A stretch of 51,276 nucleotides of DNA from NCBI GenBank assembly GCA_020249045.1, contig JADCGK010000038.1, positions 1 through 51,276 of the forward strand, written 5' to 3'. The first letter of the stretch is position 1. Each line of letters opens with the position of its first letter. Position numbers and translations under genes: made by a program. The stretch comes from Azospirillum sp. (GTDB taxonomy: Bacteria > Pseudomonadota > Alphaproteobacteria > CACIAM-22H2). The notes below the pieces were generated by a model. That model searched no databases and was not told the origin of the DNA. It saw only the letters and a list, made by a program, of their open reading frames with translations. Shown here one piece after another: positions 42,721 through 44,133 of this stretch.

Positions 42721-42737
42721 GCTGCCTTAGCTCAGTG
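42721..42737 (+). repeat. Left direct repeat: 5' fragment of tRNA-Thr
   Basis: The 17 bases GCTGCCTTAGCTCAGTG are identical to the first 17 bases of the intact tRNA-Thr at 44059-44075, and the match stops there. The fragment is not a tRNA. It looks like the duplicated attachment site left by integration of the DNA between the two copies. Confidence 0.8.
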
Positions 42738-42894
42738 CTTAACTTTGTCACCCATAAGCATTTGATAATAAACGGTTTTCTGTGTATTTGCGATCTGCAT
42801 TTGACCTGTACACTTGTCCTTATGAGATGCATTACTTTATGCAATAATAAATCACGCCACCCCCCCTGATTCGAAGGAATCGGAGTTAGTGCGC
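42738..42894. other. AT-rich left flank of the insertion
   Basis: About 157 bases of clearly lower GC than the chromosome, including runs such as TGATAATAAACGG and CAATAATAAATC. It contains GACCTGTACAC at 42803-42813, which is repeated at 44001-44011, and ATAAGCATTTGATAA, echoed at the right flank. A possible -35 TTGACC at 42801 precedes the DUF4062 gene without a good -10 at standard spacing. No gene was found. Confidence 0.6.
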
Positions 42895-43887
42895 ATGGAT
42901 AAAAGGTACCAAGTTTTTATAAGTTCGACATTCTCTGATTTAAAAGAGGAGCGTCGAGCGGTGATGCAAGCTGTCATGAAGGTTGGCTGCATTCCCGCAG
43001 GAATGGAGCTTTTTCCAGCCGCCGACGAGCAACAACTCGACTTTATTAAGAAGGTGATCGACGACTGTGATTACTATTTGATCATCATTGGTGGCCGCTA
43101 TGGATCAGTGACCGCTGATGGAGTGAGTTATACCGAAAAAGAGTATGACTATGCCGTGAGCAAGGGCATCAAAGTACTGGCGTTCCTACATCGAGATCCG
43201 AGCGAAATCTCTTTTGCAAAGTCTGACGTCGACCCTACAGCACGGGAAAAGCTAGCGTCGTTTCGATCCAAGGTGTCGACTGGGCGACTGATCGACCATT
43301 GGAACACTGCAGCCGATCTACCAGCCTCCGTGGCGCTCGCCCTGATTTCGGCCATAAGGACGTATCCAGCAACCGGTTGGGTTCGTGGCGACGTAGCCAC
43401 GGCACCTGAGTTGTTGGCGCAAACCAACCAACTGAGAAACGAAAACGACGAACTCAAGAAAACCGTTCAAAACCTTCAAAAGCAGATCGTTACCGCCCCG
43501 AGGCTCGATATCGCAGGTGGTGACGAAAAGTTCACCGTCTTTGGAAAATATTACGATGGCTTTTATAGAACGTGGTCTTTGCAGCTCACCTGGAACCAGA
43601 TTTTTGGGCTCGTTGGGCCGAAGCTGTATAGCCCAATAGCGGTTCAGAATCTTGAAACCACGCTGGGGCCGGCATTTGGTGAGGCGTTCGGGATCAATGG
43701 CTCAGGCCACACAATCTCCAAAAGAGACTTTGAGACAATAACGATTCAACTCAGCGCACTCGGCTTGATTAAGGTCTACCAAGCAGAGGCCGTGAAGGGA
43801 GGAATCCAGGCCTTTTGCACTTTGACTGATACAGGCACTAAGCGACTGACGGAAATCCGAGCGATCAAGAAGAAGGCTGAGGGGTGA
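42895..43887 (+). CDS. DUF4062 domain protein with coiled coil and winged-helix-like C-terminus
   Basis: A 330-residue protein. The N-terminal DUF4062 domain (about 5-88) carries YQVFISSTFSDLKEERRAVM, GMELFPAADEQQ, DYYLIIIGGRYGSV and YTEKEYDYAV. A coiled coil follows at about 174-198 (LLAQTNQLRNENDELKKTVQ). The C-terminal third (about 225-325), with SKRDFETITIQLSALGLIKV and LTDTGTKRL, looks like a winged helix. DUF4062 is usually an N-terminal module of multidomain proteins, including STAND NTPases linked to predicted phage defence; no NTPase is present here. The ATG at 42895 has GGAG 9 bases before it, better than a GTG at 42889. Codon use and GC are unlike the neighbours, and the gene is alone inside a tRNA-flanked insertion. 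Confidence 0.8.
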   Translation: MDKRYQVFISSTFSDLKEERRAVMQAVMKVGCIPAGMELFPAADEQQLDFIKKVIDDCDYYLIIIGGRYGSVTADGVSYTEKEYDYAVSKGIKVLAFLHRDPSEISFAKSDVDPTAREKLASFRSKVSTGRLIDHWNTAADLPASVALALISAIRTYPATGWVRGDVATAPELLAQTNQLRNENDELKKTVQNLQKQIVTAPRLDIAGGDEKFTVFGKYYDGFYRTWSLQLTWNQIFGLVGPKLYSPIAVQNLETTLGPAFGEAFGINGSGHTISKRDFETITIQLSALGLIKVYQAEAVKGGIQAFCTLTDTGTKRLTEIRAIKKKAEG

Positions 43888-44058
43888 GGTGTCTGATCGG
43901 CCAGTTGGGCCCGTAACGGCAACACTTGCATCCCCCATACTTTGTGCTACTACGCTGGCCAAAATTTGGTACGCACTGCGTATCAAGCGGAGTGATACAC
44001 GACCTGTACACCTGATTTTTCAGCCTATAAGCCATTGAAGAATCAGCCCTTCTGGAAC
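43888..44058. other. Right flank of the insertion, upstream of tRNA-Thr
   Basis: This 171-base stretch has lower GC than the chromosome and no credible gene. It holds the second copy of GACCTGTACAC (44001-44011), an ATAAGCCATTGAAGA element like that of the left flank, and TATAAG at 44026-44031. The TATAAG could be the -10 of a promoter for tRNA-Thr, with a start near 44038. No matching -35 is obvious. Confidence 0.5.
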
Positions 44059-44133
44059 GCTGCCTTAGCTCAGTGGTAGAGCGCGTCCTTGGTAAGGACG
44101 AGGTCCGGAGTTCAATCCTCCGAGGCAGCACCA
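44059..44133 (+). tRNA. tRNA-Thr (GGT)
   Basis: A 75-base cloverleaf: acceptor GCTGCCT with AGGCAGC, D arm GCTC/GAGC, anticodon stem CGTCC/GGACG around TTGGTAA (anticodon GGT at 44091-44093), T arm CGGAG/CTCCG with TTCAATC, and an encoded ACCA end. Its first 17 bases are repeated at 42721. Confidence 0.95.

Follow-up and report, generated by a model that had tools for sequence, protein, structure and literature searches.

How does a single gene come to lie in AT-richer DNA between an intact tRNA gene and a copy of the first nucleotides of that same tRNA, and what might such a gene do? This question is raised by a locus of Azospirillum sp. (assembly GCA_020249045.1, contig JADCGK010000038.1), in which a DUF4062 gene is found upstream of tRNA-Thr(GGT); positions are those of the analyzed stretch of 51,276 nucleotides, hereafter the window. 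The best explanation, to which a probability of about 0.75 is assigned, is a minimal, non-autonomous integrative island that resembles a cis-mobilizable element (CIME) and carries a gene of the Swarozyc type. CIMEs are elements that have lost their integration and transfer genes and kept attL and attR (PMC5704250). Swarozyc is a defence system from a preprint of May 2026, and KpSwz is its characterized member (PMC13174449).

The segment is bounded by a direct repeat of 18 nt, CGCTGCCTTAGCTCAGTG, whose copies are located at 42720-42737 and 44058-44075 of the forward strand, 1,338 bp apart. A preliminary description of this DNA had recorded 17 repeated bases of the tRNA at the same spacing, and the repeat proves to be one base longer. 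The right copy, the presumed attR core, forms the 5' end of the intact tRNA-Thr(GGT) (44059-44133, forward strand), the sole GGT tRNA detected in the genome. The left copy, the presumed attL core, consists of the first 17 nt of this tRNA and one additional base. In the draft genome (3.87 Mb in 255 contigs), the 17-nt core occurs at just two places when up to one mismatch is permitted; the scattered copies that the preliminary description had envisaged as the opposite case were not found. Among the approximately 43 tRNA genes of the genome, each inspected for about 4 kb on both sides, tRNA-Thr(GGT) alone has a fragment repeat at kilobase distance. Between the two copies lies foreign DNA of 1,320 bp (42738-44057, no strand assigned), with a GC content of 0.45-0.52, whereas values outside are 0.62-0.70. 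GC content at third codon positions (GC3) is 0.56 in the island gene, compared with 0.82 in leuA and 0.87 in a chemotaxis gene. Apart from the tRNA, no Rfam match in the island exceeded the threshold.

Sites without the island were found in all ten genomes of the same genus (G001-G010), in which the aligned left flank stops 71-160 bp before tRNA-Thr, and none of the order's 22 other genomes examined had a match to the island DNA. Because the site is empty in these relatives and no DNA relative of the island was found in those 22 genomes, the mini-island is a precise insertion of foreign DNA at the 5' end of tRNA-Thr. The horizontally acquired mini-island proposed earlier, with one gene, no integrase or transposase, and an empty site in relatives joining the left flank to the tRNA, is therefore in good agreement with the comparison, and close relatives do not share the gene with ordinary codon use. 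The winged-helix gene to the left (42412-42696), with weak FeoC/AbiEi-like matches, is core rather than island, because it is conserved to the left of tRNA-Thr in all eight same-genus relatives whose loci were examined. Beyond it, leuA was present in five of the eight, and a response-regulator gene was present on the right in three; these loci are short, so the lack of either gene means little. In one genome of the genus (G007, contig C11, 100090-142344), the final 50 nt of tRNA-Thr are repeated about 42 kb downstream, which suggests that a large island occupies the 3' end of the same tRNA.

The ends of the island appear to be those of an integrative element. The 18-nt repeats at the exact boundaries, together with the empty sites in relatives, correspond to attL-like and attR-like ends that have been kept. 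Inside these ends a 14-nt motif, GACCTGTACAC(T/C)TG, is found twice on the forward strand: as GACCTGTACACTTG at 42803-42816, 65 bp inside the left repeat, and as GACCTGTACACCTG at 44001-44014, 43 bp inside the right repeat. These two are the sole occurrences in the genome with up to one mismatch, and their position and uniqueness suggest the arm-type sites of a tyrosine recombinase. One supported gene is contained in the interval, and no integrase or transfer gene was found inside the island. The genome holds ten Phage_integrase matches, none of which is linked to the tRNA-Thr site. The segment would have entered by site-specific recombination within the 18 bp at the start of tRNA-Thr(GGT), through a tyrosine recombinase that was provided in trans or has since been lost. 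To the right of the segment the tRNA would have stayed intact, with an 18-bp remnant kept to its left.

The island gene (42895-43887, forward strand) is flanked by 157 bp and 170 bp of island DNA and encodes 330 amino acids. The listed reading frame begins at a GTG and gives 332 amino acids; the ATG at 42895 is preferred because homologues begin with M(D/E)KRYQ. A DUF4062 match (PF13271, E = 1.7e-31) covers residues 8-89 of the longer GTG reading, as expected from the earlier view of AT-richer DNA with a single DUF4062 gene. In a sequence search, KpSwz (PDB 10wc) was aligned over residues 3-295 with E = 3.5e-77. Its catalytic Glu97 corresponds to Glu83 of the island protein, a residue conserved without exception in 68 homologues. 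Opposite Glu83 the PDB chain carries Ala, as expected for an E97A construct. In the AlphaFold model (mean pLDDT 91), a predicted TIR-like NADase domain (residues ~1-160) is followed by a stalk helix (171-197) and a winged-helix sensor domain (~207-325) with a beta hairpin at 212-232 (strands 212-220 and 224-232). In fold searches, the N-terminal domain resembles both nucleoside deoxyribosyltransferase (NDT) and TIR folds, with Z of about 11 to 13.6, and the C-terminal domain resembles PadR-type winged helices with a probability of 1.00. KpSwz was not among the best 50 Foldseek matches listed, so the link to it is taken from the sequence search. NCBIfam returned no match to the protein, and PADLOC returned a weak one, to the candidate system PDC-S60 (E 0.043). 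A multidomain STAND protein was rejected because the chain ends after the winged-helix domain. By its sequence and predicted structure, the island gene is a further member of the Swarozyc family. The reading as a predicted defence gene, with a TIR-like pocket at the Glu to which the preliminary description had pointed, is supported. Its suggestion of a compact defence or signalling gene of new design is not, since the architecture is that of the published Swarozyc (PMC13174449) and relatives are encoded at 487 loci found when 84,980 species genomes were scanned.

KpSwz consists of a DUF4062 TIR-like NADase, a helical stalk and a winged-helix sensor that binds the phage portal; activation by the portal leads to loss of NAD+ and death of the infected cell, that is, abortive infection (PMC13174449). 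By analogy, the island product would rest as an autoinhibited oligomer. Binding of a phage protein, which for KpSwz is the portal, to the winged-helix domain may rearrange the TIR-like domains, whereupon Glu83 would catalyze NAD+ hydrolysis and the cell would die before phage release. Mean column entropy rises from 1.08 in the TIR domain to 2.40 in the sensor and reaches 3.30 at the tip of the hairpin, which fits a conserved enzyme joined to a fast-evolving sensor that faces the phage.

The position of the insertion also raises the matter of transcription. In eight relatives, a footprint of AGTTGC-N16-TGGCAT is conserved upstream of tRNA-Thr and is likely the tRNA promoter. In this genome it is present in the left flank (42669-42696, forward strand), and the island is located between it and tRNA-Thr(GGT), with the gene and the tRNA in the same orientation. 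Given this arrangement, transcription of the defence gene probably starts from the former promoter of the tRNA. The tRNA would then be transcribed by read-through or from the right end of the island. No terminator-like site was found between the gene and tRNA-Thr, and a consensus promoter scan found no promoter. The island may have captured the tRNA promoter for its own gene, and the shared orientation makes such capture, with read-through into tRNA-Thr, likely.

A parallel was found at tRNA-Sec of Stutzerimonas. In two genomes (L082 and L099), tRNA-Sec and 27 nt repeated from its 3' end enclose a Swarozyc homologue and an HEPN-like gene; each genome has just two copies of this repeat. The unit measures 2,019 bp. 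In L082 an integrase gene is directly adjacent to tRNA-Sec on its far side, and in L099 the integrase profile recognized none. The unit's left end, about 137 bp long, is met again at tRNA-Sec in other Stutzerimonas genomes. Some of the islands there encode an integrase, namely L223, which additionally encodes a putAbiC protein, and L226, whose replication-type protein matches Phage_CRI weakly. Others (L220-L222) are small and have no intact integrase, although L221 retains integrase fragments. The Swarozyc unit and L226 have in common a pair of TTCGACA motifs, located at positions 92 and 103 as counted from the repeat. The islands of this site (L082/L099, 5791-7905, and L220-L228) range from about 0.9 to 7 kb, and most have the left end of about 137 bp. 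Their cargo varies (Swarozyc with the HEPN-like gene, putAbiC, M78 peptidase), and an integrase is found in some and not in others. By analogy, these islands support the tRNA-Thr unit as a non-autonomous relative of an integrative element.

Within the reading of a CIME-like island, two sub-cases differ on present mobility. The unit may be the decayed remnant of a larger prophage or integrative and conjugative element that was deleted at the tRNA down to its ends and the defence gene and no longer moves. CIMEs originate in this way (PMC5704250), and the integrase fragments of the L221 island demonstrate that shrinkage by deletion occurs; yet both ends, both 14-nt motifs and an intact gene survive here, no remnant of an integrase or of any other gene is present, and the short flanks beside the gene are merely 157 and 170 bp. 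Such an origin is held tentatively, at somewhat less than even odds. The unit may otherwise be a dedicated one-gene cassette that has long travelled as 1.3 kb by means of foreign integrases. Its compactness and the retention of both ends agree with this, as does the Stutzerimonas unit of 2.0 kb in two genomes, one with an integrase by the tRNA and one with none recognized. Searches of 40 relatives, of 385 genomes of the class and of 23 of the order gave no second copy of the 1.3-kb unit, however, and such a cassette is considered rather unlikely. The lack of an integrase inside the island and the draft state of the genome would also be compatible with an event other than site-specific recombination, such as chance duplication, illegitimate recombination or an assembly chimera at the tRNA. 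The boundary falls exactly at the tRNA 5' end, both flanks are syntenic with relatives and the internal motifs are paired; moreover, assembly k-mers are usually longer than 18 nt, so that the repeat is below their length. Such an event is very improbable. For the protein, a regulator or a nucleotide N-glycosidase in place of a suicide NADase has to be considered, because the fold also resembles nucleoside deoxyribosyltransferases and DNPH1, and the top structural Z-scores are to DNPH1 and MilB (13.6 to 13.1), against 12.4 for TIR. These scores are close, DUF4062 is reported to be distantly similar to TIR and NDT domains alike (PMC13174449), the island protein is matched over most of its length by KpSwz, which hydrolyzes NAD+, and the catalytic Glu is invariant. 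Little probability is thus given to a regulator or N-glycosidase.

Several observations weigh against the preferred reading of a CIME-like island with a Swarozyc gene under a captured promoter. An autonomous element with these ends was not found in the 40 relatives, the 23 genomes of the order, the 385 of the class, and viral contigs. The 14-nt motifs are called arm-type sites from where they stand and how rare they are. The portal-anchoring pair W238/Y239 of KpSwz is replaced by Lys218/Tyr219, and the hairpin is hypervariable among homologues; from this substitution in the sequence, the trigger of the island protein may be something other than the portal. Finally, the divergent winged-helix gene may start, in this genome, at the CAT of TGGCAT, although in one relative (L002) a stop comes two codons after that ATG; promoter capture is therefore held as no more than likely.

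Nine of the 385 genomes of the class have a match to the island protein, the source genome included. The best 80 of the 487 loci were kept, nearly all of them full length, and a tyrosine integrase was found nearby at 10 of these 80 with a home-made profile. Among plasmids, 182 records match, 164 of them staphylococcal, and those listed match only the first half of the protein; many of the staphylococcal records among the matches listed are of about 20.6 kb and encode such a half-matching DUF4062 protein. Two phage records also match. On a plasmid of Vibrio alginolyticus (L037, 842-12993), a Swarozyc homologue is placed within a run of small genes on the same strand, which looks like a candidate integron cassette array.

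Two further tRNA signals were noted in the source genome. A tRNA-Thr(CGT) at 15350-15443 of the window is a probable false positive of ARAGORN, as it has no Rfam support and a good tRNA-Thr(CGT) is present at locus L249. On contig C220 (L255, 3800-4060), the 5' half of tRNA-Pro(TGG) is followed 154 bp later by a variant tRNA-Pro; the end of this contig resembles Illumina adapter sequence, and a plain tRNA-Pro is present on contig C3.

The vehicle, a small CIME-like island without an integrase at the 5' end of a tRNA, is more unusual than the gene that it carries. The locus adds an alphaproteobacterial-type member to a defence family that was not described until 2026, and it indicates how small a package for moving such a gene may be: one gene, two recombination ends and no integrase. 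The Stutzerimonas parallel suggests that tRNA islands lacking integrases are a recurring vehicle of defence genes; they would escape searches based on integrases or on defence islands. By separating a tRNA promoter from a tRNA that seems to be unique, the insertion also represents a testable strategy of expression. A general class of minimal defence cassettes, with one or two genes, may insert at tRNA genes using borrowed integrases; at a tRNA 5' end such a cassette would capture the promoter and tie an essential tRNA to transcription through itself, so that it could be lost only by precise excision. This generalization is speculative and distinctly unlikely.

To our knowledge, the elements known as CIMEs are far larger than the tRNA-Thr mini-island. 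The mini-island shares with CIMEs as defined in PMC5704250 its retained end repeats and a content of cargo only, with no integrase or transfer gene; it differs in its location at a tRNA 5' end, and a related autonomous element was not found in the genomes searched. With Swarozyc (KpSwz; PDB 10wc, 11cq and 11cv), the island protein shares the TIR-like DUF4062, the helical stalk, the winged-helix auxiliary domain and the catalytic Glu; it differs in the hairpin anchors, and its gene is solitary in a tRNA island of 1.3 kb, whereas the tested members were picked from defence islands (PMC13174449). In tRNA-dependent lysogeny, attP and attB share about 10 bp, and the broken host tRNA is replaced by a phage tRNA (PMC10865867). 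There, too, integration occurs within a tRNA gene whose function must survive, but in the island the 18-nt block of identity leaves tRNA-Thr intact. The Stutzerimonas tRNA-Sec islands are also small, integrase-less and tRNA-flanked, with a Swarozyc homologue as cargo. Theirs, however, is a two-gene unit with other ends at the 3' end of the tRNA, and it has integrase-encoding relatives that share its left end.
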